From NCBI RefSeq assembly GCF_000003605.2, contig NW_003113472.1, forward strand, positions 188,177 through 225,709: a DNA stretch of 37,533 nucleotides. Reading direction: 5' to 3'. The notes under the pieces are model-generated. The model worked only from the letters and a program-made list of their open reading frames with translations. It was not told where the DNA came from and did no database searches. This document shows positions 12,324 to 37,533 of this stretch, piece by piece. The position numbers were made by a program, and so were the translations under genes. This DNA is from Saccoglossus kowalevskii (lineage: Eukaryota; Hemichordata; Enteropneusta; Harrimaniidae). How positions within the stretch are numbered: position 1 is the stretch's first letter; each line of letters opens with the position of its first letter.

Positions 12324-12381
12324 AATAATTGTCTGATCAACTTTCAAGAGATTACCACAGCTTACAAAAACTTAATTCCAG
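12324..12381 (+). CDS. candidate internal exon, J-domain helix-III-like peptide
   Basis: The 58-nt segment has a strong acceptor (tttgttttttcag) and a good donor (CAG/gttagt). Only one frame is open (phase 0 in, phase 1 out) and it reads NNCLINFQEITTAYKNLIP. The pattern F-x-E-I-x2-AY-x2-L is typical of the third helix of DnaJ J domains. The HPD-bearing helix I-II part is not visible upstream, so it would lie in an unseen exon or left of the window. The phase-1 end fits the TNRC6 chain exon at 25755, giving ...NLIPDDEYKDL. That join, over 13 kb, is inference. It may instead belong to a separate upstream gene or be a chance pseudo-exon. Confidence 0.4.
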
Positions 12382-13301
12382 GTTAGTGAAAATGTTTTCT
12401 TCATTTTTTTATTTTGTATATGTATGCATGTTTCTATGTGATTTAGACGATATTTATTTATACATGTGTACTGGCCGATACATCTGTATATTTAGGCCCT
12501 CACATCTGTATATTTCTAGGTGATTTATGCCCTTGTGTCTATAAAATATTTGCAAAAATATCAATTGAAAAAAAAGTACTAACCCAGTAATAAATCACAT
12601 TAGTCTATAATTACTTGTATTATTTGTGTACCTAGTATATATTTGATTAATTTTCCGGGACATGAAAGGAACATTTGAAATAATATTTATTGAGAAAATA
12701 CATATATATATATATATAGTTTGCCTTCATTATCATTGTTTGTGGTTTCAGCAATGTGAGAATGTTGTGATTTTTGTATGTGTTTATTAAATCAGTGTGT
12801 TAATCTATTCAAATACCTTATATACATGTATAATGAAATGTCAACAGTGATAAAACTAATAAAATACATAACAGTTAGAAAAAGAGAAAAAAATGACAGT
12901 TATTTTATAGTCAGAGTAGGTTGTATTTTATGATCTAGTAGGCAATAAATACAATTTTTGGTTTATTTTTTCTATTAGAGATGTGCTTGTAATGGATTAA
13001 ATATGGTAACAATATCAACATTGGATGATAAATCATGTGTATGATGTGTTTAGTGTTTGTATTTCATGTTGTGGGAGCTAGTAACTGGCAGTTGTCTGAA
13101 TTGTCTATATGAATAACTGGGTGAGAAGGTTGTTTTGTCAGTTGCAAAGTCAGAATAAAATGACTGTATCATATGTGAATTCAAAGGCTGAGCTTCTATA
13201 ATATACGGTACCAAACAAAAAAAAGGTAAAAATTTTATAAATCTATTTTAAAGATGAATTAATAAGTCAGTTATAGCCACAACAGTTCTGACCAAATTTA
13301 A
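12382..13301. other. non-coding; short AT microsatellite
   Basis: No gene seen. A run catatatatatatatatatag lies near 12701-12719. Confidence 0.5.
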
Positions 13302-14365
13302 ATGTATCCCAGACCAGACCATGTATCAGACGATTACATGGCTCCCTCTCAGATCAGACCATGTATCAGAAGAATACATTGCTCCCTCACTGACCAGACC
13401 ATATATCAGAAGAATACATTGCTCCCTCCTGCTCCCAGACCATATATCAGAATAATACATGGCTCCCTCCCAGACAAGACCATATATCAGAAGAATACAT
13501 GGCTCCCTCCCAGACAAGACCTTATATTTGAAGAATACATGGCTCCCTCCCACTTCCAGACCATGTATCAGAAGGATACATGGCTCCCTACCGCTCCCAG
13601 AGCATATATCAGAAGAATACATGGCTCCCTACCGCTCCCAGAGCATATATCAGAAGAATACATGGCTCCCTACCACTCCCTGAGCATATAATAGAAGAAT
13701 ACATGGCTCCCTCCTGCTCTCAGACCATATATCAGAAGAATGCATGGCTTCCTGACCAGACCATTTATCAGAAGAATACATGGCTCCCTCCCAGACAAGA
13801 CCATGTATCAGAAGAATACATGGCTCCTTCCCAGACAAGCTAGACCATGTATCAGAAGAATACATGGCTCCCTTCTGCTCTCAGACCATATATCAGAAGA
13901 ATACATGGCTCCCTCCCAGACAAGACCATATATCAGAAGAATACATGGCTTCCTCCCAGACAAGACCATATATCAGAAGAATACATGGCTCCCTCCCAGA
14001 CAAGCTAGACCATGTATCAGAAGAATACATGGCTCCCTCCCGCTTCCAGATCATGTATCAGAAAAATACATGGCTCCCTCCCAGACAAGACCATATATCA
14101 GAAGAATACATGGCTCCCTCCCAGACAAGACCATGTATCAGAAGAATACATGGCTCCCTCCTGCTCTCAGACCATATATCAGAAGAATGCATGGCTTCCT
14201 GACCAGACCATGTATCAGAAGATTACATGGCTCCCTCATAGACCAGAGCATATATCAGAAGAATACATGGCTCCCTCCCTGACCAGACCATGTATCAGAA
14301 GAATACATGGCTCCCTCACAGACCAGACCATGTATCAGAAGAATACATGGCTTCATCCCAACCAG
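13302..14365. repeat. about 40-bp minisatellite, each unit able to form a hairpin
   Basis: About 26 tandem units of 36-46 bp, core 'ccatatatcagaagaatacatggctccctcccagacaaga' (40 bp). Variants replace the last part with tgctctcaga, cttccaga, cgctcccaga or gaccaga. Units written with ccatgtat contain CCATGTAT and ATACATGG separated by the 7 bases cagaaga, an 8-bp perfect stem. The more common ccatatat form breaks one pair. Long open frames across the array on both strands (up to about 239 codons) arise from missing stops in the unit and shift register with unit length, so I do not call proteins. Confidence 0.93.
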
Positions 14366-15580
14366 GTATCAATAGAATCAACACATTATGGTCCCAGACT
14401 GGGTATTGACAGAACACATGAAAAGGTCACTTCGTTTTGCAGAGATGCTGATAATAAATACATGTACAATGTACCTGGTACTTCTATGAAATCAACAACA
14501 GTACATGTACATTATTCTGAATACAGGAAGCACCTGTCCCAACTATACATGTATGCTACAGTGCACCCTGTAATTTTAATACTGCTTTTGATTATTCATA
14601 ATAATAAACAATACAGTCAGAGTCTAAGAATGGAAGAAAATTTACCAGGTGGTCTGCCCCAAGCAGTAACTTACTTAAGAGTACATTCACATATTGCAGA
14701 ATTAAAATGTATCAATTTTTTTTCTATTTGATTAATACATGTTTTTGTTTTTTTAATTCATTTTGTGCAATAGACATTATTTCACTTGATGGAACATTCT
14801 AATAAATTTATATAAATATTGAAGATGCCACTATTATTCATTCATAGCTTGAATCTTGCTGTTATTACTCCATTCTTCAGGCATGTTCCAGCATCAGCCA
14901 GCATGTTTCTATAAAGTAAAATTTGTTCCATCTTCCGATCCCACCTTGATTTGTTAGATAAGAAACAAGCAGTAGCAAGTTCTGTGCATCTGCTTTGACA
15001 ATCTTGAAAGTGAATCTTCAAGGATATTAACCAGCCTGAACTTTTGTTAACGCAATATTTTACTGGAGTCACCAAAATTATTACATTCATATTCAATACA
15101 GACCACTGTGTTATCACTAAAATAATCATAGTCATCATGATGTGTCAAATTCAACACAAGTTCAATGCAACATATACAATGCAAGCCAAATTTGTTTCAC
15201 AGTAGCGCTTTGGTGAATACAGGTGCTAATAGTTGTGGGTAAGAAATCAGATAGGAAGTAAATGGGTATGCAAGTGAAATAACTGACAATTTTTAGTGTA
15301 TTTTTTCAATCACTAGAAATTGAGAAGAAAAAAACAAACAGGTGTACTGAAACTTATTGCTATTGAAGGAGACATATTCCCTGTTTTTATTAATTAATTT
15401 GAGCAAATCTGATGTTGCAGGGATATTATGAAGAACAATACATTCTGTGTTTGAATTTGTGTGGTCACATACCAATGAAATGTAAAGCTTTGTTGGGTTC
15501 TACTTTGAAAGCTCAATACGCCTTAATTAATATGTACCCGCTGATATATATGTTATTTTCCTGAAATATTTTGGTCATAC
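14366..15580. other. non-coding, no recognisable feature
   Basis: No supported exon. The open frame that continues out of the minisatellite to 14731 has no recognisable content, and the minus-strand frame at 14842-15138 is also unrecognised. Confidence 0.45.
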
Positions 15581-15890
15581 ACGCTACATGTTAAATTGAT
15601 CAGATTAAGCATTCATGAGCCATAAATGCACAAATTGTGGCCATTTTTGACAAAAATTTAAGATTAAAATTATTTTATTTTTCTCATTATAAAATTTAGC
15701 CATACATCCTATATGTAAATATTAAGTTGATGGGTTAAAGCACAAAGCTACTACATATGTCCTAAATTGTGGCCATTTTTGCCAAAAATCCAAGATTAAA
15801 ATTATTGTATTTTCTTGTAAGAAGCTATACGCTACATTTCAAATATCAAGTTGATTGTTCAAGGCTCCCCTGTGAAACACACGGCAAAAA
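15580..15890. repeat. diverged direct repeats, about 130 bp period
   Basis: The sentence 'attgtggccatttttgacaaa..t..aagattaaaattatt' occurs near 15634 and again near 15766 (132 bp apart). It is preceded each time by 'catac..c.a.at.t.aa.tt.a...gatt' (about 15576, 15701, 15826). Further weak copies may continue to about 16100 ('gacaaa', 'aaatcaaaga'). The organisation resembles the internal repeats of the 4517-5300 element. Confidence 0.65.
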
Positions 15891-16560
15891 TCAAAGATGG
15901 TAGCAAAATCATGTGACTGATCCAAATTATTTGTTTGAGTTTGGTATGGAGATGCAACATGGCAAATTTCAAAATAATTAGATAAATGTGGCTTCAGTAA
16001 AAAATGTAATTCCTGTTTAGAAGAAATCAAAGACGACAGACCAATCACAACAAGCGACTCAAACTTGTATAAGCAATATACATAGATGCTAAGAAACAAA
16101 TTTCAGTTCAATATGTTCATTGCTTCTGAAGAAGAAGATTTTAAGTGATTTTTTTACCATTTTTCGAGGGCAAAAAAGCATGGCAGAAAAAGTCATGTGG
16201 TTGCTAATGTTTTAATTTGTGAAATAGATAGCTCATATATCAATAATCCTACTACAAAAAGTCAGAATGGCCACTTCCAGTTCAACTTCTATCCAAGGTG
16301 GCTCCCAAACCATTGACCAATCAAAATTCTAAAGTTAAGTGCACTAGTTCTCATAGTTCCTGATATGCTTGAGAAGTTTCAGAAGTCTACAGGCAACAGT
16401 TTTTAAGTTCTAGGGTGATAAAGAAATGGCGACGGAAGAAGAAGAACAAACAGTGTAAATTCCTATCAGTGAAATAAAGCAAAGCTGTGTGGCGCGGTTC
16501 GCGTGGACGGGTTTCATGTTCTCTGCACGTAATAAGCTCGGTTATTAAGCATCCTTTTTT
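15891..16560. other. non-coding flank of SINE and repeats
   Basis: No gene supported. The minus-strand frames here and across the SINE are not recognisable. Confidence 0.45.
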
Positions 16561-16650
16561 GGGGATGCCCGGTGGCCGAGGGGAAGACGTGTAGTGGCGT
16601 GAAGCTAGGCGATTAGGTGCCGTACGTGAGCGCCGGTTCGAGTCACGCAC
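16561..16650 (+). repeat. tRNA-derived SINE head (tRNA-like, not a functional tRNA)
   Basis: The segment has a box-A-like TGGCCGAGGGG (16573-16583) and a box-B GGTTCGAGTC (16635-16644). The spacing of about 62 bases fits a class II (Leu/Ser-type) tRNA with a long variable arm. The acceptor stem does not pair and the T-stem has two mismatches, so it is not a working tRNA gene. This is what a tRNA-derived SINE promoter region looks like. The SINE body and its 3' end are not delimited. Confidence 0.75.
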
Positions 16651-17869
16651 ACACTATGTGTTTACTATAATTAGACATAGTCTTTACCTTGCCGTTTATT
16701 CGGTGTTATTTGCTTGCTAAAGCAAAGCACAGTCCTGTACAGTATATATCATTGTCCATATTTGGACATTGCATGAAATCATAGATGTCCTTATATTATT
16801 TATTATTTATTAAGGGTTAAAGAGGATTACTTTCTGGCTTTTCATTGGCCCCTAAACCTGCATAATGTAAAATCATTCAATTAAATACATATGTGTAGTT
16901 TTAGGTGTCTAGGGAATTGTAAAAAAAAACTAAAATGAAATAATTTCAATAAATTGAATAAGAATATCATTTGCACATTATTGTTATCAGCATGTTTTTT
17001 GTCTGGGTGGTAAAATTACATGCACATGTATATACACATGTATATACATGTTCCAGGGCTGCAGGCCTACATTATTCGAATGGTTCTGGCTGGCTCCATA
17101 CAAGCAAAATTTATAAAAAATTAAGTAATATGTACTTCTGGTGCAACAAAGGCATTTCCTTAATCGTTATAACAATTTATAAAATTCAAATTGAAACAAG
17201 AGGGTTATGTTGACCGATTGGATTACATTGGAACATTTTCAAATGATGCCCATGCATACTGTTATTATTGATTAGATGGTTTGATTTGATTGCCATTGTA
17301 ATTTATCAATATTTTTAAAAATCAAAAGAATGCCTTTGTTGAGCCAAGAGTAACTCTACATATTAACACAGGCATATATAATTTTGGTAACAACATTTTA
17401 GTATAAAAACAAGAATAAATTTTCTTCAAAGTGCTGTATATATGATGATTCTGCACTTTATTTATTACAGGTACTGGTTGAATGTCTGCTCATATTGTAA
17501 TATATATATCTTTTTTTGTGGGGTATCAGATAGGTTGGCATAGCAATATTAGTTCTATTTGATTTGTACTGATCGACAATCATGATTGTGGTAATTAATA
17601 TGTTTGAGGCTCTGCTGCTGACAATAATCTGCACAACCTTATAAATTGTGTTGTATGAGTTGTAACATGCTTTGTCTGGTGACCTCAAATTTGTTCTTAT
17701 CTTTGATTGGGGAAGTGATGCTATGAAGTGTAAAATGTTTCCTTACTTCGGATTCTACTGCCTAAAAATGAAATGTGTTATGTAAGATATCTTGCATAAA
17801 CTATGTCTGCATCATCTGTAACCTGACATTTCTGGCTCTAAATATTCCAAGACAGAACAGTTCACCGCC
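16651..17869. other. non-coding, possible SINE body then unique sequence
   Basis: The first about 100 bases may be the body of the SINE. The rest is AT-rich with short acatgtatatacacatg repeats near 17020-17050 and an exact copy (17225-17244) of the 20-mer also at 4493-4512. No gene seen. Confidence 0.45.
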
Positions 17870-18760
17870 CTTTTACCCCATTCAGCGAGCGTCTTTCCGA
17901 CCACAGGCCTTTGTTGTATTGACACAGATGGGGTCATAAGGAGGTCAGGGAGCAGTGTGCCGATCTATGAATATTAATGAGCAGCAAATGGTCTGCCATG
18001 TTTCTTGTATCACGTAGTTTAAATTTAATACAAAAACTAGGCGTCGTCTTCCATTCTACCTCAGTGGAACAGTTTACATTTGTCATTTACAAAGGGGGAT
18101 CGGGTGTTTCTTTACAATTTTCAAGAAATTTCTGCGTTTTGGTGCAAGGAAGGTGAGTAAACTGCGCACATAACTGCGCCATGATCAAATGACCTAGATT
18201 GTAATATGGCGTGTTAGAGAAAATGGCTACGATCGTTGGCGAGGCTTCTCTATTTCTTGTACTTAACGTAAGTTTGCTGGCGATGTGGCCTTGTGCATTA
18301 TTTGGGTATGTGTGTTTGCTGGAATTATCGAGGTGACAAAATGGCAGTTCACAATGCAAATAAAGTGTGGGCAATTCGGAATACAACTACCCTGATCGCC
18401 ATGTTACGACTCGATCGCCATGTTTAAAAACAACAACACTACGCCACATAGCTTCGCCGCTGCCTTGGAGGCGGTTTTTATTATTTTCTTTCGAAGCCAA
18501 TATAACGGTGTGTGCATCACTGAAAATTAATGAAACGCGTAAACATCGTATTTGTTTATGTCGTCGTTCAGGTCTGCCCCTTTGGGTGTGACATTGAAGA
18601 AGAAGAAGAAGCTAGAAATTGACGTCGCTGTCGCATTAACGACTTTGTTTAGTATATTCGCACAGAAATATGTTATGTAGTCTGGGTCTTGACTGTCGAC
18701 CACTTCCTGATTCTATCGACTGTTGCGCTCGTCCTTCTTGTAGGCTCTTTGCTTCTAGCA
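17870..18760. promoter_or_regulatory. CpG-rich block, candidate promoter / 5' exon region
   Basis: CpG dinucleotides are much denser here than in the flanks (for example around 18160-18300, 18380-18480, 18530-18660), and the block contains TGACGTCG (about 18620). It holds two good splice donors on +: AAG/gtgagt at 18152/18153 and AAC/gtaagt at 18267/18268. The first would end an untranslated leader exon, the second a short ATG-containing one. It lies upstream of the TNRC6 chain on the same strand, so I infer it is that gene's promoter region. No TATA box or transcription start can be fixed by eye. Confidence 0.45.
18223..18267 (+). CDS. weak candidate start exon in CpG-rich block
   Basis: An ATG in good context (A at -3, G at +4) opens 15 codons (MATIVGEASLFLVLN) to a strong donor, AAC/gtaagt, phase 0. 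The peptide is hydrophobic and unrecognised. Phase 0 does not fit the exon at 25755 (needs phase 1) or 25477 (needs phase 2), so an unseen partner exon would be required. It may be fortuitous. Confidence 0.18.
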
Positions 18761-20387
18761 TATATATTTACAGTGTTCTTGAAACATATTAGTGTATTTA
18801 AAATTAATCTGAATAGGCGTGATATATCGATTGATTTTTATTTCCCCCTTTTTTACATGCAGTTAAAATAAATAATTTCATGTGCTTGGAAGACTCAAAC
18901 AAAAAGAGTTTGGGTGTGACCTTCCAAGACCTTAAACATGAATGACCAGATCACCTTTGAATTTTGCGTTCAGTATTATTATTAACATGTTTTCATTGTG
19001 CTGCAGTGCTTATTATTTTTTATTCCAAGTGTTTCTATATTAATTCACCATTCTGCATTTTTAAACAGTTGTCTTCACTGTTTGGGATTTAAAAAAAAAG
19101 CATTTATTCGCTACCTAATTCAGTTTGTTGACAGTAACAAGCTAATACATGATTTTAACCCAAAAAAATCAAATCATAGCATTTTCAATGCACAAGTGCA
19201 GCTCTGGTTTGAATTCTTTAAAACTGAAAACATTAGTAACATGTTTTGTTTCTATCTACCATCTGAGAAAGAAAAAATCATCTTAAACATAACTATTTAC
19301 ACATGCTTTACACCTGAATTAAGTTCAAAAGAATGACAACATGACCAAGCATGTCAGCAATGATCCTGTCATTGTGTCTGTTGTTAGTACGGTTTTATCA
19401 TCAACTATTGTTAGTGAAGTATATACAGTATATAGCCCCATCAACATGTAAAAATACCCTCAAATCTGTGTATAGCAACCACCCAAGAGACTTCATTAAA
19501 ATGGTTCTTATAGACAGGTAGTCTTTATATAGAGATTAGATTATATTTTTATGGAGCACCTTACTTGTATATTTGCCCAAAATATAATGAAATGATACTG
19601 CTGCCACAAAAACATAAATTTGAGTTGACAAAATTATATAATGATGTAAGAAAATTAAATATTATCATATATACAGAATGTTAATTATTATCTTCGTTTC
19701 TAAACAAAGGTGAATCTGCAAAAATATTGCTGAAAAATATTCCTTATACACAGGTTTCTTATGCCTTGGGACTGCCTAAAAGTCTCATATAGAGGTGGTC
19801 ACTAATGGTTTGACTTTATTCAGTATATTTTTGTAGACATGCTTTGATATTACCTATGATACATCAGAAAGTATATTTAATTAAAAATAGTTTCTGCTAT
19901 TAGTGCCAGGCTGAAAAAACTGTTACCATGGAAACTACACATTGCTAATTGTGCTCTTGCTGTGTATTGTAATGCAGATATAAATATTACAGTGAAATGT
20001 AAAAATGATCAGTGGTTGTATATGTATTGATAAAGATCAGTTGTTTTGGTTTCATGTTTATGACAATATTTTTGCTCAAAATATCCATGTTCTTTGAGTG
20101 ACTGTTGTAAAACCAACTGTGGTGGTTTGCTGATTTCAAATAGTGTTAACATATTACCATGAAGTATGGTGTATTCTTGGAAGCAAGCTGCATGTCAGTC
20201 GATATTCCAGCTGTACTATCTTTGTGCATACTTTGAGGTATTCTCGTAATAACCTCATATTAATATTGATCAAAACAGTGCTGCATACATGATAGTATTC
20301 TAGAACAGAATTAGTCTATGTATTAGCAGCCTGTTGGTTGGCTGTTCCATGACATATTTATAAATGTTAAAATATTTAAAAAAAAAA
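18761..20387. other. non-coding, no supported gene
   Basis: A 112-codon open frame at 18998-19336 on + has no recognisable motif, is very AT-rich and has phenylalanine/isoleucine-heavy composition typical of chance frames, so it is not called. Confidence 0.45.
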
Positions 20388-20395
20388 GATTGTGC

Positions 20396-21130
20396 CAGGG
20401 GGGAATTGGCACGAGAGGACGCCATCCGATCTGAATGGAACGTTTCGATGTCAGTCGTCTGTAGCCCACCGTCAAAGCAACAACGTCCCGATTATAAACA
20501 GATGAAATAATTTCAGCAATTTCTTTACAGAATAATCCTCAACAAAACTTATAAACATTTCATAGACAAATACAGGCTCCAAAATTATGTCTATTGCAAA
20601 ACAATTCAACCGACAACCAGTTTGACGCCACAATTTCTTGCTGGAGCCAGAGTTCTACGCGTGATTTTATTGCGTTCAAAACTGTTCCATTTCAAACTGC
20701 GCATCCACACACACTGTGGTTTCTCGAAATGCATACTAATTAGGTGACTTGTCACTAATAAAAGTCACCGAAAACATTTTGAGCAATAGTACTAGAGTGT
20801 AATATAAACGTGCCTCTGCATTCTCCATGAATTTCGTAACTTGCTATGATCATGGTAAAGAGAAAACATGTGCTTACTTTCAACAGTTAGCTGGAGTCCG
20901 ATCGAAAACGTGTCTCAAAAAATACCTTTACATCATTTTTTCGATTATTTTTTTCAGCTCGTAACGATAGAATCAGTCAATTTAGAACTAACAATTTTTT
21001 ACATGTATGCTATCAGAAAGCATTTTGGAACAATTTTACTGAAAAGACGAGTTTTTCATTGCTCATGAATATTAATTTATGCAAATAAGACGATTATTTC
21101 AACCAATCGTGTCATGCAACTCCCCCCCTG
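20396..21130. mobile_element. hAT-type non-autonomous DNA transposon with perfect 8-bp TSD
   Basis: The element starts CAGGGGGGAATTG and ends in the near-complement CAACTCCCCCCCTG. It is flanked on both sides by GATTGTGC (20388-20395 and 21131-21138), a perfect 8-bp target-site duplication, and CAGGG termini are typical of hAT elements. The 735-bp interior is moderately CpG-rich and has no recognisable transposase, so it would depend on an enzyme in trans. It ends 230 bp before the candidate ATG exon at 21361. Confidence 0.9.
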
Positions 21131-21360
21131 GATTGTGCATTTCAGTATTCTCCTCAGGAAAATAGCATAGAGTATGGTCTAATTTACATAACAATATAAC
21201 ATGTTAATCACCTCTGTTGTATTCATTGTTGTGCTAAATTGGCTCTGCTGTTTATCACAAATACTGGAGACTCGGTATCTATACACCAGGCAGAAATTGA
21301 TACTTTGAAAAACTTGACAACAAACGAGCTGCTGTCTAATTGGTCTGACTGACTGTTGCG

Positions 21361-21395
21361 ATGTTTGGGTTGGGAGGCCAGTTAGGCACAATCTT
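21361..21395 (+). CDS. TNRC6: candidate alternative first coding exon of TNRC6
   Basis: ATG at 21361 opens 11 codons plus 2 bases (MFGLGGQLGTI) to a perfect GTAAGT donor at 21396. An in-frame TGA lies 15 bases upstream. Phase 2 out matches the phase needed by the exon at 25477, giving FKFIRKTLLFR and then DDEYKDL of the main chain. A possible acceptor (caccaggcag) near 21296 would let an untranslated exon from the CpG-rich block join here. The peptide is not recognised, and such phase matches can occur by chance. Confidence 0.4.
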
Positions 21396-24333
21396 GTAAG
21401 TAGCTTCTCTCAGGTTTTTAGGTAATGAAGTTAGTTTTTATTATGAAGGTAGTTTCACTTGGTAGTTATATGATACGTAATGTGCCAAACTTTGTGACTT
21501 CTAACAATTTTTCCTTTCAGTGTATAGGTTGCAAACTACTTGCGTTATATTACTGGTAGCGATGTCTATTTTTATGCCCTGATAGATTGTAGCTTATTGC
21601 AGTGTTGCTAAGCAAGGAAAAAATGGCTTGGTTTACTCAATATGGAGTCACTACATAAACAGTTTCTGTTTCATTTTTCTATGTACCCAAGTTTGAGTAG
21701 TATCACTTTGCCTTCCTATAAGGACATGGACCAGCCAGTTGTGGAAAGCGAAATACTATAAAAACATATTCACAAAATTTGTAAATATCCATACATTTAT
21801 TATACACTTTGTTAGAATTTTTTTTATCTGAAGGAATCCCACTTAGTAAATTGATTTTAGAATTTGAAAGAATGTTTGTCACCAACTCTTAATGATTAAC
21901 TTAACTGTCTTTGTTATTATTTGCGTGTATAACACAGAACAGCCATCTATTGGAAATATTCAACTAAACTAAAAGACGCTCTTTGTAATTGTAAAGCATC
22001 CTCCCCCCTTTCATCACTGCATGTTATGTGTTTTACTGTCTGAAATGCAATAATTTTAACTTGTTCCTTAATGTCATATGAATGCCAACAGTGCATAGCC
22101 CTGTTATTCATCAGCTGTTGGCACTTGTTTGGATGGGAATAAATTTATAGGCAGTACTGCAGACAGTCATGATTTTTGTTGTTGTATTTAATCATATTTC
22201 ATTGGTAGCATGCACATTCTCACGTCGTTCTAGAATCCCAATGTTTGCCATTTGAATTGAGGTTTTGGGAAATCAGCTTTGTAAATTTTTATTTTTAGGC
22301 CTGATAGAAATATTTTTTTTTTTTTTTTCAGGATTGATGTTGTTTATTGATTTGTAAGACAACTTATTTGATCACTGTAGTTTATAATTGTTGAGAAAAT
22401 CAATATTAATTGTAATGTTAAGATAGGTTAGTAGGTTATGGGTCAAATTCAAAACCAGATTGAACTGGATTAGGGTTGACCATCCTTCACTCTTTAAACA
22501 CTTTTGGTGCATCATTTTGCATAATATGTTATTTTTTTTTGATAATTTCTTCGATAATTTTGAACCAAATAAACATAATTTTTCATTGATTACAGGTCTG
22601 GATCAAATCTTTAGAGAACAAAAATGCATGTTTTCATTTTGGAAATGTTAATACAGGTTGGCACTCAGCACTCAAAGGATTAAACCAAGGCTTAATTATT
22701 AGCTAGGGCTTGTTTTGATGATAACTATCAAGTTCATCAATTCAAAACCTGGTGAATATTAACATTTAACAATAGAATGTAATTCTGTTTCTTTTACTTG
22801 TGAATTTAAAATTTTGCAAATATCCCAGAAACATCAAATCTGTATAGCCATCACACCATTCTGGTTGCACTCCTGGATAGTTCACTGCATATTCAAGTCT
22901 TGTGATTGCTGAAACGCTCTTCTCCGTTGTCAGAATCTGTAAAGACAAGGTTAATAAAGTATAATATTTGTCATTTAATTACATTTACAGTGTGTTACTT
23001 TTTTTTTTGATATGAAATAAAAGTAAAATTTGACTTAGTTTCATCGATCAGAAGCGATTATTTTTGATCACTTGATTTCTTTGGTAAAAAACATAGACCC
23101 GCCATTGTTTGTGACGCATTAGTTGACCGACATGTGTCCTTTGACCCGATGAGTCAAGCCATTAACCAATCAGAATGCTGCATGGTAATGCCGATAAAAC
23201 CCAAAGTTTTCCGAATGGTAGTGATCATAAAAATTACATTGCGGAAGTAAAGTAATGTCATAGCACAATGTGTTGGTATCGATTTAAGTTGAAAACTACA
23301 TTTTTGATTTTCTCAAGAGGTGATTAGCAATTTTTAAAAGGTAAAATAGGTCTTGAAAGAAGAGTTTTTACATGATTCGCAATGATATGAGTTAAAATGT
23401 ATTTTACCCAATCATGCAATAAACACATTTTTTTCTTTGATCATGTTATATCAAGGTGGAATTGATTTTGAAAGAATTTTAGCTTTTAATTTAAAGACTG
23501 AGTCGATCTTCAGACTAATGTTGTATTAACTTACAAACAAGGAGGTGCTAATATCACAAAATTGACTAGCCACATCCTGCGACTAGGTCTTTTGTTTACA
23601 AATTATAATCCAGGACTGGCAGGATGCATATCGGTAAGTAATTATAATAACAATCGCACAATAGTCCTGGTCGGAAGCATTTCTTTGGAGGTCGCTGATT
23701 TTGAGTGTCAGTCAGGCCGACCAGCGTAGCGAGATTCCTGTCAACAATAATGAATATTATTAGCGTAAAATAATAAATTAATATCAGAATGTTTTGTGTT
23801 GTGTTAGTGGCCATATAAATAAATAGTTGTGATTCAATTTAATGGAATGTTTGGTTCACATTGCACCTCATTCAGTTATTAATTATAATAGGTATTTTTG
23901 TTTACATTATATATGTTGCTACAGCGAGAAGAGTATGCATCATTGACAAATATGGATATTGCAAGTTGTTTCAATTTTCTTTATTTTACTTTGTGAAATG
24001 CCTACCATGCCTCATTGTTATTGCTGGCTGTGTTAGACACTGTTTTTCATTGTTTGGTTAATTCCTGTAGGTAGTACCTGAAAGGCATTATGTCTTGTAA
24101 TTAAGTTATCTGTGATGTTTTAACAGATTCAGTGGCGTTGCTGTCTGTAAGCAGTGAGAGTAGTGTTCAGAGGCCCATTATTATTACATCATTGGACATT
24201 TCCATTATGAGCAGTATCTTTTACAAATAGAAAGTCGTCTTTTAATGGTAATGCGGCTTTTCAGCTCGTAAAATGTTTTTCATATACTGTCAATCAAGGC
24301 GTTACTTTAGTTTATTATACCTGTGTTTGTTTG

Positions 24334-24334
<1 letters not shown>
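21396..24334. other. probable intron or 5' flank; no gene seen
   Basis: AT-rich. It includes a T17 tract before a good acceptor at about 22331 whose downstream frames close quickly, a segment shared with 35.1 kb (23117-23190, listed), and a weak exon-like piece at 23933-23969 after gctacag with a poor donor. None is called. Confidence 0.45.
23117..23190 (-). repeat. segment shared in inverted orientation with 35085-35160
   Basis: Here: 'ttgaccgacatgtgtcctttgacccgatgagtcaagccattaaccaatcagaatgctg'. The reverse complement of 35.09-35.16 kb reads similarly, with 'gtcctttgacc.atg.gtcaag', 'taa..aatcagaatgctg' and 'ttgacc.aca' all present in order. The matching copy lies inside the Tc-like element at 34658-35547, so this is a fragment of that family or of sequence it captured. 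Confidence 0.65.

Positions 24335-24403
<69 letters not shown>
24335..24403. repeat. (TG)34 microsatellite
   Basis: Uninterrupted TG dinucleotide run of 69 bases, preceded by tttgtttgttgt. It lies in the probable first intron of the TNRC6 gene. Likely length-polymorphic. Confidence 0.98.
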
Positions 24404-24407
<4 letters not shown>

Positions 24408-24843
24408 TAGGGGAAAGAACAGTTTTTAATACAGTCTAGCCATTAATCCAGTCAGGTCCTCTTTTGGATTATTTTACGTTTAATGAAGCAGGTATACATG
24501 TCAACATTTCCATACTAGCTGTACTGGCCATGCTGATACGAACATATAGTATCACCTTTTATTTAAACAAAATGACCTTGCTTGCATAATCAATTGGTAA
24601 CAGTTTTGCGGTAGTGTCTGATATATACTACACGTATTACACAGAAATCATGTATGTTGAGAAATCCTAACACATATGTATAAAATTTACTAATCATTCA
24701 TTGATAGCTAGTGTGGTGGTTGGAGTTGGATCTGAATCAGCAGACCCAAATTAGATTTTAACTTGAATCGATCTTTGCCCTCAGTGATGTGAAAATCAAT
24801 CATTCAAAACTACCACTAGTAGTAAAAAAATCACAAACTACTG

Positions 24844-25002
24844 TATTTGCTCTACTAGCAGTGCACAGATCTCCAATAAAAGAGCATGTGAACACAAAAT
24901 ATTATTTGTAGTATACCAAATCATTAATAATACTTATTTGAACAAATTTACGTAATTGTAATTTACGCAAAAGCATACACTACTACCGTAATAGAACAAA
25001 TT
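24844..25002. mobile_element. 159-bp MITE carrying a TA-CCG-TA excision-like scar
   Basis: The left end TATTTGCTCTACTAG and the reverse complement of the right end (AATTTGTTCTATTA...) are inverted copies of a motif seen also at 9417, 34457-34578 and 34644. Sister ends read CTATTAGTAG. This one reads (reverse strand) CTATTACGGTAGTAG, with three extra bases CGG between two TA (24984-24990). These match the last bases of the TA-flanked element now at 34658-35547. Confidence 0.65.
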
Positions 25003-25476
25003 TGGTTTAACATTGCTACTATTTTATCCTGCCTATTATCAATTTTTCCCTTTGTTCTCATTTGTCCAAATTAGCTTAGTTAAACCTAAATCTTGGTCCA
25101 GAAAATATGTTAGTATGTTAATGTATGCTTTGTAACAAATTCATGCTACATTACAGTTGCATATAATGTATTGTCATTGAAATATTGAGAATAAAAGTAG
25201 TGTTGTATCACTATCACCTGCTTTAAGGTGACATCAGTAATACAGTATTAAGAAAACTAGGTATATTTATGTTAAGATTGTGTGGGCAGTAAAAGTTGTG
25301 ATGCAATATTTATGATCAAGCAATATATGACACATAATCTTGGGTTGAGATGTACTGCTTTTCACACCTGTTAGTGTTCATATAACAGTGAATATATCTG
25401 CATTGCGACTCTTATAAAGTAGGGCAGTAACATGTCTGCACCAGACAATTGTGATTTATTGTGTCTCTCATTGCAG

Positions 25477-25508
25477 CAAATTTATTCGAAAAACTCTTCT
25501 GTTTAGAG
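25477..25508 (+). CDS. TNRC6: candidate small exon of TNRC6 5' end
   Basis: The acceptor tgtgtctctcattgcag is strong. The 32-nt segment is open in the frame with 1 base completing a codon, ten codons (KFIRKTLLFR) and 1 base left, ending at AGAG/gttaat. The donor is weak beyond GT. It links the 21361 exon (phase 2) to the 25755 exon (phase 1) in frame. Unrecognised, basic peptide. Confidence 0.38.
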
Positions 25509-25754
25509 GTTAATCTAAAGATATTATAATAAGCATGTGTTTTTTGTAATAATTCTTGGAATTGCCTACTGTGTCGTGTATTAAGTATTATTCAATCTGT
25601 GTTTTCTATAACATTTTATATTCTTTATTTGTCATCTAAACCATCTGGAGTGCGAACAATCTGTAATGGTAATAATTCATTGAGATGTGTTGAATATTGT
25701 GTTACTGATGCAATGGCGATTTAAATGGCATTTTTTTTGTTTGTTTGTTTACAG

Positions 25755-25786
25755 ACGATGAATATAAAGACTTAGATAGTAATCAG
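25755..25786 (+). CDS. TNRC6: TNRC6 chain exon 1 (32 nt)
   Basis: Excellent acceptor (ttttttttgtttgtttgtttacag) and CAG/gtgtgt donor. Only the frame with two leading bases is open (DEYKDLDSNQ), so it enters in phase 1 and leaves in phase 0. Acidic, no ATG, so a further upstream exon must supply the start. Confidence 0.6.
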
Positions 25787-28700
25787 GTGTGTACATGTTT
25801 TTTTTTTTAATAATATTATCTCTTACATATTTGTGGCATGTGTTAGTCAACCTATTTTAACCTTTTCAGCACCGAGATAAACCGGTTTCACTCGTGGACA
25901 CCACCATTTCATGGTATACTGGTCTGAAAAGATTATTGTTGTGACCTTTTCAAATATTGTGATTAAAAATACATTTGTGACTGCTTTAGTGCCATTTTTG
26001 CAGCAAATTTTTACCGTAAGATGGTCCGCCACATCAGATTTATTTTTTTTCTTTCTTGTTTTGTTTTGTGATGGGATTATTTCGTAATGACATTGCAAAT
26101 GAAACGGGAATGAGCTTTACAGACCCCACCTAGCAATCGACTGGTTTGTTTTTATTGATTGACTATTTTACCAAATTCAGACATAGTTTATACCGTTTTA
26201 TACATAGTTTATACATTTTCCAAAACTCATAAAATACAAAAATCATTATTTTTAACCCATTTTGCTTCCTTCTGACAAGATATATTGTTTACAGGATACC
26301 ACAAAACAATTTTATTTCGCAGCAACAGTTTTTTTTTTCTTAATTCAAATGAAAATTCATATTTTTAAGCATTTTTTGTTTTCACCAAATTTTATGTTTC
26401 TTCACCCGTAATGGTCAACTGTTGATAAATTCTCTCGGTACTTCATATGTTGTAGATGTATTAAACTTTCAAATGACATTCAACATACTCTTCGTATTCA
26501 CAAATACTACCTTGAATTTAACATTAAAAGATTTAACACCAAATCTTAAAATGTCAAAGTATCAACAAATGCTGTTTTTATCTCTTTTTTTTGACATTAC
26601 TCATCAACTATTTATAGCATATATTACAGTTTAAAACATGTTTTATATTTGTATACAATGCATTTTCATTTAGAACAAACCTTTACCTGTTCCAGAGTTA
26701 AATATTAAACCTTTAACCCAAATGTCATTGTTGAAGGAGTAGTTGAGTAATTAGTAGCATAAATGTTCTTGTGAATATTTTATCAGCTTTCGAATGAGGT
26801 ATGACATGAGATGACTGGGCTGTGTTTGTCTTAAAGCCCAAACACAAACACACAGCCCTCTAATTCTACCATTTTCTGTCAGTAAGCTGGCAGACAACAG
26901 AAACAATCAATAGAGAAATGGTGGTGAAAAAAATGAGTCCATAGGGCCTTCCTGTGACCAAATAAAATTCCCATGCAAAGAACTTTTCATATTTAAAGCT
27001 TTGGTGACGGCATAAACATTTTCATTATTCTATTAGTATTATTGAGGTTAAAGTTGTATTCCCACTTATTGTACCCTCTACACCAACAATTGCTGAGATA
27101 TTCATGAAAAAGGATATTCTAAACTAAGTTGGGTTTTGTTTTTTACCTTAGAAGTCTGTTTTCGTAAATACTGTGTTAAACTAGGTAGAAAAAAATTGTT
27201 TTATTTTTCAAGTGCATGAATTAATAGTGATTAAATAAATAATAAATAGTGTTTTTGTTTTTTTTCGGATGAAATACAAATTTATATGATTACCAAGATA
27301 CAATCTAGCCTCAGCAGGTTTAGCGAAAATTTCATGCATGTGGCAGTCAATGTTTTGTTGGAACTTTGTAGAAACATGTAAATCTGCCAAAAATTAACAC
27401 TGACATCTAAAATGTAAGATCACTTATATATCAAGAGATATCAAAATTTGCAACATAAGACACTCCAATACTCTCAAAATGAAATAGAAAAGAAAATGAT
27501 AGCAAAATATCGACTTTTAAAATATACAACTTCATCATTTGAAAATATTTATTGTTTGAGTGTTTTTTTCACGTACTAGTAATTGCGAAGTGGGAATGAA
27601 ATTTTAATGAGAACAGTGGTGGTTGTCCAATCAATGGTTTGCATAATACTCACTACCCGGTACACGTTTTCACTGTACCATGTTTACCTGTATTTTGTAT
27701 ACTTGTTAATTTAATGTTGTAACAATTTAAAAGTATTTTTTTGTGTTTTCCAATGTTACTAACGACATTGGGGTTAAAGTTGAATGTATTAGATGTATTT
27801 GAGTGATTAGTGAGGAAATATCTGGTGACAGTTTAATACTCAAAACAATTGCATCATTCTCTCTCTTCACTGCTTGGTACATAAAGCAGTAGCTGAAAAT
27901 TTTGGGGTGTATGTAATATCTGAAGTTCCTCCTTGTTAGTGGGAATTCCTATTCATCTGATGGATTCCCGAACAACACATGATTGTGACTTTCTTTAAGT
28001 TTAGTCATCAAGTTCTTTTTTTCCCAGTAGTTAATTAATACAATATTGTTTTTTTTTTCATGTCTCGCAGTTATTTTCAAGGCTATTTGAAAATGTGCTA
28101 TTATGCAAGAAACCAGGTAAGGACATGTTGTTTTATATAAGTAACTATAAATATTCCAGATATTTTGACTTGGCAACAATGTTCCGTCATGTGTTGTGGT
28201 ATGTATACCTGTGAGTAATAGTGGGATTATTCACTTCCATGGTGTATAGTGGTGTGTTGGGATTGATCTTTCGTTACATATAAGGGTTATTTAGTTATTC
28301 ACACTAGAGACTGAGAGGAATACTTTCACGTCTCTAACTGTGTTATTCTTGAACGCATTCCAATGAGACATAATGGCTGCACACTACCTGCTTACTGTAT
28401 TTGCTTAGTTTTGAAGTATGTATAGACTTGTGAAAGAGTCAGTTCATACAGGCTTGTTCTACTGTATCAGCTCTGTAAATTTGGCAATGTGTTGAAGTGT
28501 TTCGAGAGTCGAACAAATTTTATGACTTACATGTGCATGTCTACAAAAATGGATAAAGTACAATTGTACATACTGGATTGTAATCAGAACTAAGATGAAA
28601 ATCAGAGGTATGCATAATAAATTAATAGATCCTCATGGGTAAAAGTTGAGTTGTCTGTTAATCAGTCTCTAGGATTTCTTATAGATATCTTAAATTATAT

Positions 28701-31700
28701 TTGATTTTATTTGAAATTAGGCTAGCATTTCAAGAAATTGTTCTACTTTCTGCAATGTATTTATTTTCTTTATCCCGTAGATATCGGAGTATTCCTGTTC
28801 TTTGCTGCCGGCCAAAAACATTCTTCTTATGAAGAAATGTCCATGTACATCGATGATGAAGAGGAGGAGGACGCTGGAGAAAAAGAATTTGACTCCTTTG
28901 TTCAAATAATTAAGGCAAGTCTAAATTTGTTAGAATAGGCATTCACCTCTCCACAATCAGACATTATAATACCACTGCTAGTTCAACAATGTTTGGCTGT
29001 CTTCACGCTGTTTTCTGTTCTATATAAATATTTTTTGACATTCCAAATGACATGTATTGATGACATACAATTTTCACATATACAATGTATTTAATCAAAG
29101 AGGTACATGTTACATATTGAAAGTACATTTTCTGACTGAATATGCATCAGCGGCTGATAAGAACATGTTGCTTGTCAGAGTTCTGAGGTGAGATGCTGTC
29201 ATGCTATTGGTCAGAATCTTCTGTGGAATGCTGTGGAAAGGTGAATTGTGACCTTCTGATGGTCGCACATGGGGATATTGTCTTGTACATGTATTAGGGA
29301 TAATGCCAGGATATCATTCTCTGCACTTAAGACTCGTTTTGCAGCTTGCATGTTTTTACAGTACATTTACATGTGTTATTTTTATTATAGAATCGAAGGG
29401 GAAAAGGAAAGCCAGTATCAGACGCATTTACTGACGATAAACTGGCAAAATTGAAAGAAAGTTTAATTCAAGAGAGAGAAACTAGAAAACTAGACAAGGC
29501 AAAAAAGGTAATGCCAATTAATTTTGAAGTTGTATTCCCACTTGTATTGCATGCCATATCTTGTATTATGCATACCAAGTGCTTTAGTTCAATGTTTTCT
29601 AAACTGCTGTGTCATTTTTATTTTTGTCTTCAAATGAGATTATATCAATTCCTAATTATGCTTGTTTCCCTCATAGTTAGTTACATTGAGTAGATACAAC
29701 CGTTTTGAATACCAAAATGGCTGAAAATGTCTGGTGTTGATTGGTTTCCAGTTTACGCTGGGTTCACTTTTGGCTGGTTTGCGCTTTATACAGAGATAGC
29801 TTGATGGTGGTCTATATAGTTTAGACTGATTTAACTGAATCTTCTTCTTTTTCTCTCATTTTCAGCAATCTGGAAAGAAATCCAAACAGCAATCTGTGCC
29901 TGTCTGTAAGGTATCATCAGTTTAATAACATTTCTTAGGATAGTATGTTGATTCAACAACACTAGATTTTGTAAACCTCTTACTTCTTATCTTCAAATCT
30001 TGTTTCAGCCAAAGCAGAAATCAAAAAAGCAGCTGAAAGCCGAACAACGTCGGCGTGAGAAGGAGATGCAAGAGATTGCACATGATTTAAACGAAAAAGC
30101 TAAAGTTGATCAAGAGAAACTTGAAAAAAGAAAACAGGTGAGTAGAAATCAGTGTTTCACTTTTCTCAGTTGCTTAAGATTATGGCAACAAAGTATCTGT
30201 TGTCATTACAAAAATGATCATCCGATAAGTTTACAATGTTAATATACATATAATATAAATAATGTAATGTTATTCACATAGAAAAATATATCAGAATTAA
30301 TTTCCATTTGGAGAAAAATATGGTTATTAATATACTGAAACAGATATTCCATGCAAGATTAATTAATAATACTTCATGAATAAATTCAAATATTTTCTAA
30401 TGTTGTTCACACCTTGACGTTTCTGCTGCATTTTGTCACTGGGTGGTGTCTTGAAGGTTATTTTGGAGAGTGAATTATTTGTTCAGCTGTATGTGATAAC
30501 TATCACAGCCAGCATAGAGAATGCTTGTTCTATTTTGGTTTGAGTAAATAGTCTACCATATTCGGGTAGTAATATATAATGTTGAGAGATAAAATAACTG
30601 TATCACTGAAGTATAGTGTTTAGTAAGTATTCAATCCCGTCTGCAATTTCTGTCTTCAAATAGAACAACGTCATGCCAAAAAAATGATGTATTGTCTATT
30701 TCTAGGCTGAAATTAAGAGGCTAGAGGAAGAGAAGAAGAAGCAGGTTGAAGAAGATAAAATACGAAAAGAAAGGTGGATATTAGTTGATTATTTTCTAGC
30801 ACTGGCTGCTGCATGCTTCAAAATTATATTATCTCATCTAAAACAAAATTAATGTTAATCCCTGAGAAACTAGTCTAAAATCTCCTTCCCATTTACTGAG
30901 TCACTAGTTTCAAATGTGCGTCTTCAGCTAGAATATGCATCTTTATCATTGAAGTTAGTACATGATTACAAATTGCCAAATAGTGACCATCTTGAACAAA
31001 GAAACGTAACACTGCAAATATTACAACCCCTAATGTTTTGAAATCAGCACTTTGATGAATAAACAAACACTTTATTTACACTACTCCAAGAAATCGGTCA
31101 TGCTGAAACTTTTCTACAATGTTCACATGTACGAGCGTTCAGGAATTTTTTAGTGATGTTTAGTTGTTTCATTTTACAGCAATTTACGTTCTTTTGGAGT
31201 AAAACAATGTTTCTCAATTCGTATAGCCTGCTTGCGAAAATGAGGTATCGCATTAATCTTTCAGCTCATGAATATTCTTGAATATATTTGCAATATAGCA
31301 CAGTCCTCCCGGAGTTCCGCAGAGGACAAAATAGCTTCTTAAAGCCAGAAACCGTTGGTTTGATTTTTATCATCTCTGTAAATTTAGTCTAAATTTGTTA
31401 TTTTATTTTATTTATTCCCTCACAGAGAAATAGAAAAGGCTATCAGAGAAGCAGAAGAAAAAAAGAGGAGAGAAGTCCTCGAACGCGAAAACGAGCGTCA
31501 GCTTGGTATGGATGAAGAAGCTGAACGTAAAAAGCAACAAGAATTAAAGAAGAAAGAAAAAGAGAAGTTGAAGAAGAAGGAAGCAGAAGCTAAGAAGGTG
31601 GGTGTGTAACTACAGAGTTGATATCTGCACCAATTTATGAAACCACCTTGACAGGAACCCTCCCTACCATTGCTGGTCCAGTTTTATGTGTACACAGCAT

Positions 31701-32386
31701 CATCATCTTCTTCTGCAAAATCGTTGAACCTCTCACATCTGATTGCATAATAAAAATTGTATTGATAAAGAAGTTATTACATGGAAATTTTGTGATATCA
31801 CAATGATTTATGATGCTTTTGAAGTATCCCATTAACTAGCAGTAGTATTTGTATTGATAGCAGCTGATTTTTTTATGTAAAAGACAAAGATCATCATCGT
31901 TCTTGTGAATGGTTTAGTTTCTGATTAATTAATTAGGGTTAATGCTATGGTATAAAAAATATTTAGTATTTTGTCTGAAACTAATTGTCAATTTCAGTGT
32001 TTATTATTTTTTCTCCCACCAGTTTGCTGAACAAAAAGCCAAAGGTATGTAAATCATAAATTAATAGTTAGCCTACACTTTATGCAGATGCTTGCCAAAT
32101 CTCATTTGGTTAATGTAAATGCATGCGCTTTAGATGTATCAATAATCAAGAAATCCAAAATCCTATTTTGTATATTTAAAAAAATAAACTGCAGTCACTG
32201 CTGAAAATGCGTTATTGCATTCTTCTAATATTATTATGTTGATGAATAAGTATGTTGGAATAACGTTGGAACATTTTTAGCAAACGTCTCCATGATTATT
32301 AATTTGATATTATGTCACTTTTAGAAGCAGAACAAGCCAAAGTACAGGCTGCAAAGAGACAGCAACAACAGAACACACAGTTACAA

Positions 32387-32422
<36 letters not shown>

Positions 32423-34134
32423 TCGCGTTATCCTCGTGAAGTACCACCTAGATTCCAACAGCAACAACAAAAGAATCAACTAAAAAAGGAGCAGCAACCT
32501 AAAACAGTACAAACACAACTACCAAACGGTAAAAAAATGGGTAAGCATGTATAGATATAGATATGGGGTATCATATGAGTAACAGTACATTAATGGGTAT
32601 TTGCATGGATTTGTCTTTGTAATACCAACCATCTACTTCCCTGTTTATAATTACCAGATCTATATGCAAATATAAAATATAGGTTATGTTATTACAGTGA
32701 CATCACCTATGCATTGAAAACCACAGTGTAAGGAAGTCATTTTCAAATAATATAGAAATTTGAACAGGCTTTTGGATCAGAGAAAATATTTACATAATAG
32801 TCCTAAGACCCTCAATGCAGCTTTAGGAGAAGGATTGAAGGAGAAGAATGCAACCACATTTTGTATAAAGCTGTGAACATTACTTGTTATTTTATAACAA
32901 CATTGTCATTTCCACAGGAATTTAACATGTATTTCTTCAATGTTATATCAATTATGGAATTAACTTTTACCCAGCGTCGCCTGGTTTTTATGATGATACA
33001 TGTACGACTATTTATTAATTATATACAGGATACATTTGCATCAGTGTCTGCTCTAATGATATAGTTTCTGTGTGTTTACAGAGGATAAAATGGAGATTGA
33101 AGCCAGCAGTGATTTCTCTGTCTGGAATGAGCCAAGTAGTGGCTGGAATCATGTTGTTGTGGACGGAAAGGACCAGGATGCCTGGCCAGCAATCGGAGGA
33201 AAGGGTTTAGAGTCAGCTGCAATGATGGTAGACAATGATGATGAATCCATCAAATCTGGGAACAATACAGATAATGCTGCCTCTAATCCAAATTTTGATT
33301 TTAAAATGAATTCTATGTCCAATGTGCCTGGCCAGATGAACCATATTGGTCATTCTACGGGCGAAGCTCAGAATAAAGGATCAGGAAGTGCCAATTCTTC
33401 CACAAGTGCAAATGCCATGAATTTTCCTGATTGGAGTACAAAGTCGTCAAGTGGATCTTCTACTTGGGGTGCTACAAACGATAGTTTATCGTCAAGCTTG
33501 AACTCTGGCTCTGTTATCTCGCCTGTGAATAAACAGAGTCACGAAGGTGCTGGTGAACTGAACAATATGAGTATTAACTCTGGCTGGGGTGCGATTGGTA
33601 CCTTGGCAACTACATCTAATGTGTCCAGTCTGCGTGGATTTCCATCTAATGACATTGGTGGAAATAATACCACCCAATCAAACTCTTTAGGGAGCAACCC
33701 AACATGGACATCTGTAGTTGGCGGAGGTGGACGAGGACCTCAGCAAAACTCACAAAATGCAAACCTTAATGGAATGCAGAGTGGAAACATGGCACAAGCC
33801 ACAACCAGTACTGGCAATGGACCAAACCTCACATTTACTCAAGCTGCAATGCAAAATTCTGGGCCGCCTACCAATCCTGCCTCCCAGTCTACTCTACCCA
33901 CTTCTGGATGGGGGCTGAGCTCAGAAGGGCAGGGATTGTCTTTCTCTACAGGAAGTGGGAATAGTTTTCCCACGGGTGCTAATCCAAAGAGTACCAATCC
34001 GGTGTGGAATATACCTTCATCAGGATTTCCAGGTGCCATGTCTAGTGCGGATAAGCCGGGTAATCATTCTACTGATGGAGCACTTAATAATATTACAGAT
34101 GCTGCAAATGGTGCAGATTCTTGGCAGGGATCAG
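25755..34134 (+). CDS. TNRC6: GW182/TNRC6 homologue, 5' portion (11 exons, partial)
   Basis: GW182 proteins bind Argonaute through tryptophans in GW/WG context and recruit PABP and the CCR4-NOT and PAN2-PAN3 deadenylases, so microRNA targets are silenced in the cytoplasm and P-bodies. Eleven exons join with matching phases at every junction (about 678 residues, numbered from the split codon of the first exon). In order: unrecognised segment with FENVLLCKKP and an acidic DDEEEED (1-71); Lys/Glu-rich coiled coil (about 72-275); polyQ of 13 (276-288); RYPREVPPRF (290-299), a motif I know from vertebrate TNRC6A/B; then a tryptophan-rich low-complexity region with W-N-H-V-V-V-D-G, D-A-W-P and TDNAASNP (342-397), matching the TNRC6B order W..V.VDG.D..WP...TDN.ASNP. 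Identification is firm for the last two exons and by continuity for the rest. No start codon is fixed. The gene continues past the right edge, where UBA, PAM2 and RRM parts are expected. Confidence 0.85.
25787..28070. other. probable intron, 2.3 kb
   Basis: Bounded by the exon donor CAG/gtgtgt and acceptor tgtctcgcag. No exon or repeat stands out apart from the imperfect hairpin at 26817-26858. Confidence 0.55.
26817..26858. repeat. imperfect hairpin in intron
   Basis: gggctgtgtttgt and acaaacacacagccc are complementary except for a 2-base bulge, separated by about 14 bases. Too short and isolated to call a microRNA precursor. Confidence 0.5.
28071..28116 (+). CDS. TNRC6: TNRC6 chain exon 2 (46 nt)
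   Basis: Acceptor tttttttttcatgtctcgcag, donor CAG/gtaagg. Phase 0 in, phase 1 out, encoding LFSRLFENVLLCKKP and a split Asp. Unrecognised amphipathic stretch. Confidence 0.75.
28781..28914 (+). CDS. TNRC6: TNRC6 chain exon 3 (134 nt), GC splice donor
   Basis: Acceptor ctttatcccgtag. The codon split with the previous exon gives Asp, then IGVFLFFAAGQKHSSYEEM, an acidic DDEEEED stretch and FVQIIK. The frame closes at a TAG only after 28914. The donor reads AAG/gcaagt, the usual form of a GC-AG intron, and joining there preserves phase 0 into the next exon. The internal ATGs (EEMSMY) are alternative start candidates if no upstream exon is used. Confidence 0.78.
29391..29507 (+). CDS. TNRC6: TNRC6 chain exon 4 (117 nt)
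   Basis: Acceptor ttatttttattatag, donor AAG/gtaatg, phase 0-0. Encodes a basic then charged helix (NRRGKGKPVSDAFTDDKL ... ERETRKLDKAKK), the beginning of the coiled coil. Divisible by three, so skipping would keep frame. Confidence 0.8.
29866..29910 (+). CDS. TNRC6: TNRC6 chain exon 5 (45 nt)
   Basis: Strong acceptor (ttctttttctctcattttcag), donor AAG/gtatca, phase 0-0. Encodes QSGKKSKQQSVPVCK, a basic linker. A likely cassette exon by size and symmetry. Confidence 0.78.
30009..30137 (+). CDS. TNRC6: TNRC6 chain exon 6 (129 nt)
   Basis: Acceptor tcttgtttcag, donor CAG/gtgagt, phase 0-0. Forty-three codons, strongly charged (KKQLKAEQRRREKEMQEIAH ...), predicted single-helix or coiled coil. 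Confidence 0.88.
30706..30773 (+). CDS. TNRC6: TNRC6 chain exon 7 (68 nt)
   Basis: Acceptor tgtctatttctag, donor AAAG/gtggat, phase 0 in and 2 out. Encodes AEIKRLEEEKKKQVEEDKIR.., continuing the coiled coil. Confidence 0.87.
31426..31597 (+). CDS. TNRC6: TNRC6 chain exon 8 (172 nt)
   Basis: Acceptor tttattccctcacag, donor AAG/gtgggt, phase 2 in and 0 out. Encodes the most Lys/Glu-rich part (EKAIREAEEKKRREVLEREN ... KKKEKEKLKKKEAEAKK), comparable in position and composition to the short Lys/Glu-rich N-terminus of vertebrate TNRC6A/B. Confidence 0.9.
32023..32044 (+). CDS. TNRC6: TNRC6 chain exon 9, 22-nt microexon
   Basis: Acceptor ttattttttctcccaccag, donor AAAG/gtatgt. FAEQKAK plus one base. 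It is needed for phase: exon 8 ends in phase 0 and exon 10 requires phase 1. Confidence 0.8.
32325..32540 (+). CDS. TNRC6: TNRC6 chain exon 10 (216 nt), polyQ and RYPREVPPRF
   Basis: Acceptor tatgtcacttttag, donor TGG/gtaagc, phase 1 in and 1 out. After a helical AEQAKVQAAKRQQQQ comes a 13-residue polyQ written with mixed CAG/CAA (which limits slippage). Then SRYPREVPPRFQQQQQ and a basic tail to NGKKM. RYPREVPPRF is the diagnostic TNRC6 N-terminal motif. Confidence 0.93.
33082..34134 (+). CDS. TNRC6: TNRC6 chain exon 11 (1053 nt), GW/WG repeat region
   Basis: Acceptor tctgtgtgtttacag, donor TCAG/gtgagc, phase 1 in and 1 out, 351 residues. Ser/Asn/Gly-rich and disordered, with ten tryptophans: W in NEPSSGWNHV, DAWP, FPDWST, SSTWGAT, NSGWGAI, NPTWTS, TSGWGLS, NPVWNI and DSWQG. 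These are Argonaute-binding style motifs. In vertebrates this region sits in one giant exon. Here it ends at a clear donor and the next exon lies outside or was not recognised. Confidence 0.95.
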
Positions 34135-34578: not shown

Positions 34579-34657
34579 AGATATATATGTATAGAGTACT
34601 TGAATGGCCAAAACATGCATTTCAAGATTGTCTGCAACCATAATATTTGCTCTATTA

Positions 34658-35547: not shown

Positions 35548-35717
35548 TAGTAGTGTATAAGCTTGAATAAATTTCAGGTGTGTGTCTATGGTCAAAATAA
35601 GTAATAATTTTAATCATTAACTACACAACAACAATTATTTTTAGTGTGTATGTGCGTCTGTTGGAGATGTGCTCTAATATGGTATGTGTTAGCAGATTAC
35701 GTGCAATATTCACCATA

Positions 35718-36506: not shown

Positions 36507-36516
36507 CAGTGAGTCT

Positions 36517-37225: not shown

Positions 37226-37533
37226 ATTAATGATCTCTTCTCAATAGTTGTTCGGCAATATCTATCATGACTAAGAATTCATTATCCATTATCGATAGCA
37301 ATGTTGTTAACCATGGGATACTTCTTAATATTAAGTGACACATCCAATGTCCTGGACTTTGAGAGTGTGTACATGATTTAGATATACAGTAGCTATGAAT
37401 GAATATTGCAGTGTGTGGAAAATCACAAAATTATAGCTTACAAAATTATTTATTAAAGTTATTAATATTTGGGATGCCATAACAAACGTATTGCATAAAT
37501 TATTGGATTTTCCCCACTGAGCAATATCTGAGA
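37226..37533. other. intronic, no recognisable feature
   Basis: AT-rich sequence to the window edge. No exon seen. Confidence 0.5.

Follow-up and report, generated by a model that had tools for sequence, protein, structure and literature searches.

The question raised by this locus is whether a short candidate exon far upstream of a GW182/TNRC6 gene adds part of a J domain to the N-terminus of the encoded protein. The window, meaning the whole 37,533-nucleotide stretch of DNA analysed (C729:188177-225709), extends to the end of its contig and carries a plus-strand chain of 12 exons, which runs from 12324 to 34134 in one register and encodes 697 aa with 0 stops. Judged from the sequence, the first exon (E1) is probably a real coding exon of GW182/TNRC6, supplying what would be helix III, the second half of a J-type domain at the N-terminus. 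The chain is composed as follows, with exon boundaries marked by a slash here and below.

E1, 12324..12381, plus strand: candidate exon, NNCLINFQEITTAYKNLIP, J-domain helix III-like, phase 0 in and phase 1 out
E2, 25755..25786, plus strand: 32 nt, DDEYKDLDSNQ (first D common to E1), phase 1 to 0
E3, 28071..28116, plus strand: LFSRLFENVLLCKKP, phase 0 to 1
E4, 28781..28914, plus strand: acidic segment DIGVFLFFAAGQKHSSYEEMSMYIDDEEEEDAGEKEFDSFVQIIK, followed by a GC donor, AAG/gcaagt
E5, 29391..29507, plus strand: begins NRRGKGKPVSDAFTDDKLAKLKESL
E6, 29866..29910, plus strand: QSGKKSKQQSVPVCK
E7, 30009..30137, plus strand: Lys/Glu-rich, with a coiled coil probable by eye
E8, 30706..30773, plus strand: Lys/Glu-rich
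E9, 31426..31597, plus strand: Lys/Glu-rich, presumably the counterpart of the vertebrate TNRC6 N-terminus
E10, 32023..32044, plus strand: 22-nt microexon FAEQKAK flanked by strong splice sites
E11, 32325..32540, plus strand: poly-Q and RYPREVPPRF, which we take to be the TNRC6 motif
E12, 33082..34134, plus strand: first GW-rich exon of TNRC6, phase 1 out, fitting C3739:10107

The apparent GC donor after E4 is the sole non-GT donor of the chain.

The downstream part of this chain, which an earlier note on this DNA had assigned to TNRC6, is backed by a second contig, C3739. Specifically, the TNRC6-PABC_bdg model (PF16608) matches above its cut-off at C3739:18271-19065 (E values 2.0e-10 and 4e-12), the sole match found in the genome, with 0 of 14 control genomes, all of them prokaryotes, matched. 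A long WG-rich open stretch spans C3739:10028-11944, and a splice acceptor at C3739:10107 accepts phase 1, as left by E12. The single PF16608 match, together with an upstream GW exon that is phase-compatible with E12, supports the TNRC6 identity, and the remainder of the gene very probably lies on C3739; the first 8,102 bases of that contig are N, and the two contigs would be joined by phase and by this one match, without sequence overlap. By eye, a GW/WG-rich region of the Argonaute-binding type is recognised in E12 and in the WG-rich stretch of C3739, which also carries the PAM2-like motif PPEFKPGVPWK. Two RRM matches on C3739 both fall below cut-off, no Pfam model matches E12 or the GW exons of C3739, and the M domain (PF12938) is matched in 0 of 1 genome here and likewise in 0 of 14 control genomes. 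When the E1–E7 product is compared with the genome, it finds its own exons at five places on C729 and elsewhere one weak place, on C3273 (E 0.017), so that no second copy of the locus is found.

The vertebrate TNRC6A-C and insect Gawky proteins share with this locus the Lys/Glu N-terminal segment, poly-Q, RYPREVPPRF, the GW repeats, TNRC6-PABC_bdg, the PAM2-like motif and an RRM, here below cut-off. Unlike that family, the locus has extra N-terminal exons, the first of which resembles J-domain helix III. Vertebrate TNRC6 starts close to the Lys/Glu segment, and we know of no vertebrate or insect GW182 protein with any of these extra N-terminal exons.

The 58 nt of E1 are open in frame 0 alone and lie between an acceptor (...gttttttcag/) and a donor (CAG/gttagt), each scoring 8.8 bits on hand-entered consensus tables, in agreement with the earlier description of a segment at 12324-12381 with good splice sites on both sides and a single open frame. 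Its phase-1 end fits E2, the join reads NLIPDDEYKDLDSNQLFSRLF as had been claimed, and the register is kept through the whole 12-exon chain. The summed splice score of E1 is reached by 15 of the 8,782 plus-strand candidates of 20-250 nt, E1 counted, and by 0 of 7,106 on the minus strand; whole or partial TNRC6 exons account for 12 of the 14 candidates that score above E1, which leaves two (17907-17943 and 18065-18152) that are not TNRC6 exons. Because 2.65 candidates of equal strength are expected per strand in 60 shuffles drawn from the trinucleotide statistics of the window, the splice score of E1 is not significant by itself, and splice strength as sole proof of the exon was dropped for that reason.

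The likeness to a J domain provides a second line of evidence. The helix III pattern F..I..AY..L, known from DnaJ/Hsp40 J domains such as those of DNAJB1 and DNAJC10, is present in E1 (NFQEITTAYKNL). Against a home-made HMM built from 10 J-domain stretches of the same genome, E1 scores 8.3 bits, and it is the only one to reach at least 4 bits among 148 plus-strand exon-frames with a splice score of at least 12. The resemblance to DnaJ helix III put forward by the earlier note thus lies above shuffled controls: across 200 shuffled windows (plus strand only), 8.3 bits is reached by 0 of 15,275 exon-frames and 7 bits by 7 of them, from 3 of the 200 shuffles, in a test that takes as given a motif picked by the reader from many possible ones. 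When bare six-frame fragments are scored, E1 (7.0 bits) ranks second of 1,360 rows, and its score is reached by 8 of 57,859 rows from 40 shuffled windows.

The Pfam DnaJ model (PF00226) gives no match to E1, E1+E2 or E1–E7 up to E 10, and this check on the translated joins accordingly came back negative. A low Pfam score is expected from so short an exon, which aligns to 11 positions of the J model. On the joined N-terminus, Pfam and NCBIfam return no DnaJ and nothing at cut-off. The locus also differs from DnaJ/Hsp40 proteins in that HPD is not seen and helix IV, with its R..YD motif, is absent after helix III, where E2–E3 read DDEYKDLDSNQLFSRLFENVLL. The J-domain tail on TNRC6 that the earlier note proposed holds in part: the TNRC6 identity stands and a J-type exon fused to GW182/TNRC6 is likely, while a complete J domain is unproven, the HPD half being absent from the window and Pfam silent.

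Further evidence comes from the placement of introns in other J-domain genes of this genome. E1 begins in phase 0, six residues ahead of the helix III phenylalanine. At L007/L021, a locus presumed by our own label to be DNAJC10-like, a phase-0 intron sits in the loop between HPD and helix III, as at E1 (HPDKNP/gtaagt...ag/DDPLAHEKF), and in L005 an exon ends with a phase-0 intron in the matching loop (HPDKNPDEPEK/gttggt). These are 2 of the 11 J genes examined; in eight (L001, L002, L003, L004, L006, L018, L020 and L022) the loop has no intron, and the remaining one, L019, is split at or beside HPD itself. The precedent indicates that the shape of E1 is possible for a J-domain gene, although it is not the majority form.

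In the proposed gene model, the first half of the J domain, including the HPD tripeptide, would be encoded by an exon further to the left of the window, E1 would be spliced as drawn, and the E1–E2 intron would measure 13.4 kb. The plus strand of the window contains 0 HPD, as the earlier note had observed. The single HPD of the window is a minus-strand one near 17009; it follows a stop by two residues and falls within the fragment 17015-16884 that tops the bare-fragment ranking with 9.5 bits; as a first half of the J domain it was rejected, since it cannot join E1. To the left of the window, the readable sequence (122561-134704 and 139813-151085) holds one plus-strand HPD, at C729:150304, without J-domain context, in a 90-kb search region of which 66,583 bases are N, including the 37,091 that adjoin the window (151086-188176).

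The alternative that survives best is compatible with E1 as a TNRC6 exon. In this view an upstream promoter yields a long isoform that includes the J-type domain, and a promoter at about 18 kb or later yields a short isoform that starts near the Lys/Glu segment; we regard it as a tentative but serious possibility. In the interval from 12.4 to 28 kb, three segments are open from an ATG to a donor (at least 8 aa, donor at least 8 bits). The segment at 18420-18507 (donor 8.5 bits) leaves phase 1, as E2 needs, and this fit, together with the 13.4-kb gap, makes a second start near 18 kb possible; 17977-18152 has a strong donor, although it leaves phase 2 and, like 17998-18152, does not fit E2. Against a short form, the candidate first exons look non-coding.

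Less probable is that E1 comes from another gene, one for a J protein, with most of its length to the left of the window and its end somewhere between 12.4 and 25.7 kb, with TNRC6 starting downstream, for example at about 18 kb. Here the phase match between E1 and E2 would be accidental, for which there is one chance in three. The distance between the two exons and the phase-1 ATG segment at 18420-18507 favour such an arrangement, as do the strong candidate exons 17907-17943 and 18065-18152 (donor 12.5 bits), which can be entered from E1 in compatible phases (phase 1 out of E1, then 1 to 2, then 2 to 0). However, two non-TNRC6 candidates in 62 kb of non-exonic sequence do not exceed chance at the 2.65 expected per window strand, and 18065-18152 is open in three frames, as is often the case in non-coding sequence. 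Moreover, Pfam was run on 10 of the 119 window ORFs of at least 60 aa without a match at cut-off, and because five of these lie between E1 and E2, no other gene is recognised there. We consider a separate gene unlikely. As an observation in their own right, 17907-17943 and 18065-18152 exceed E1 in splice score with no gene found around them, and may be alternative promoter or 5′ UTR exons.

It is similarly improbable that E1 lacks any biological role and owes its open frame and good splice sites to chance, for although shuffles yield comparable splice scores on each strand and comparably high bare-fragment J scores (8 rows in 40 shuffled windows) and Pfam DnaJ is silent, none of the 200 shuffles combines the splice score with 8.3 bits of J likeness, and 2 of the 11 J genes examined have an intron at this place and in this phase.

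With E1 read as a TNRC6 exon, the long form would consist of a J domain, an acidic linker, a Lys/Glu coiled coil, poly-Q, GW repeats, PAM2 and an RRM. J domains contact Hsp70 by way of HPD and helix II, which stimulates it to hydrolyse ATP, and Hsp70/Hsp90 together with J proteins assist the loading of small-RNA duplexes into Argonaute; in the systems known to us, J proteins and Hsp70 act in this loading as separate soluble factors. The J domain on GW182 could dock Hsp70 and trigger its ATPase on clients held by the GW scaffold, which may be Argonaute as it is loaded with small RNA or recycled, or alternatively GW-body condensates that would be loosened. Both uses are suggested by analogy with the established biology of J domains and Argonaute loading. 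The further proposal, that GW182 has a functional J domain with an intact HPD upstream, that the scaffold recruits Hsp70 and so ties silencing to chaperone-driven loading of Argonaute or to the turnover of GW bodies, and that the module was lost in vertebrates and insects, stands in our view at an even balance. If it is true, a GW182 with its own J domain would physically link a chaperone step to the silencing scaffold, and an ancestral animal GW182 acting as co-chaperone becomes testable.

A comparable architecture may already be known. In work attributed to Moran et al. 2013 and Mauri et al. 2017, GW182 of the cnidarian Nematostella reportedly has a long isoform with a DnaJ domain, which would share the J-domain-on-GW182 arrangement. 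If so, the present locus would not represent a new architecture but add one more animal lineage to those with an ancestral one. In an open library with few subscription papers, no paper combines GW182 or TNRC6 with 'DnaJ domain'. The available portions of PMC4793324, PMC12768352, PMC11811051, PMC7283388, PMC6155107 and PMC8255926 do not describe a J domain on GW182, nor do the available portions of later papers on GW182 mention the Nematostella DnaJ domain. PDB sequence searches with E1–E4 and with the GW part, taken up to E 10, return 3, 1 and 1 matches, all weak and unrelated (best E 0.56, 0.66 and 0.33). For relatives in viral_contigs and genome_contigs, collections unsuited to a search for an animal gene, 0 of 48 and 0 of 148 pattern matches are confirmed.

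The window holds no tRNA and no Rfam match at gathering score. Tandem arrays occupy 1-1328, 3818-4077 and 13307-14365 with units of 32, 36 and 40 bp, the 36-bp array comprising 7.2 copies that are 100% identical, and the long ORFs inside these arrays are products of the repeats. At 34652-35553, inverted arms (27 nt, 85%) separated by 848 nt enclose GCGCCCACCCC-type stretches and may mark a mobile element. Another inverted repeat, at 36516-37226, has 97-nt arms that are 93% complementary and 517 nt apart, and resembles a small non-autonomous DNA transposon within a TNRC6 intron.
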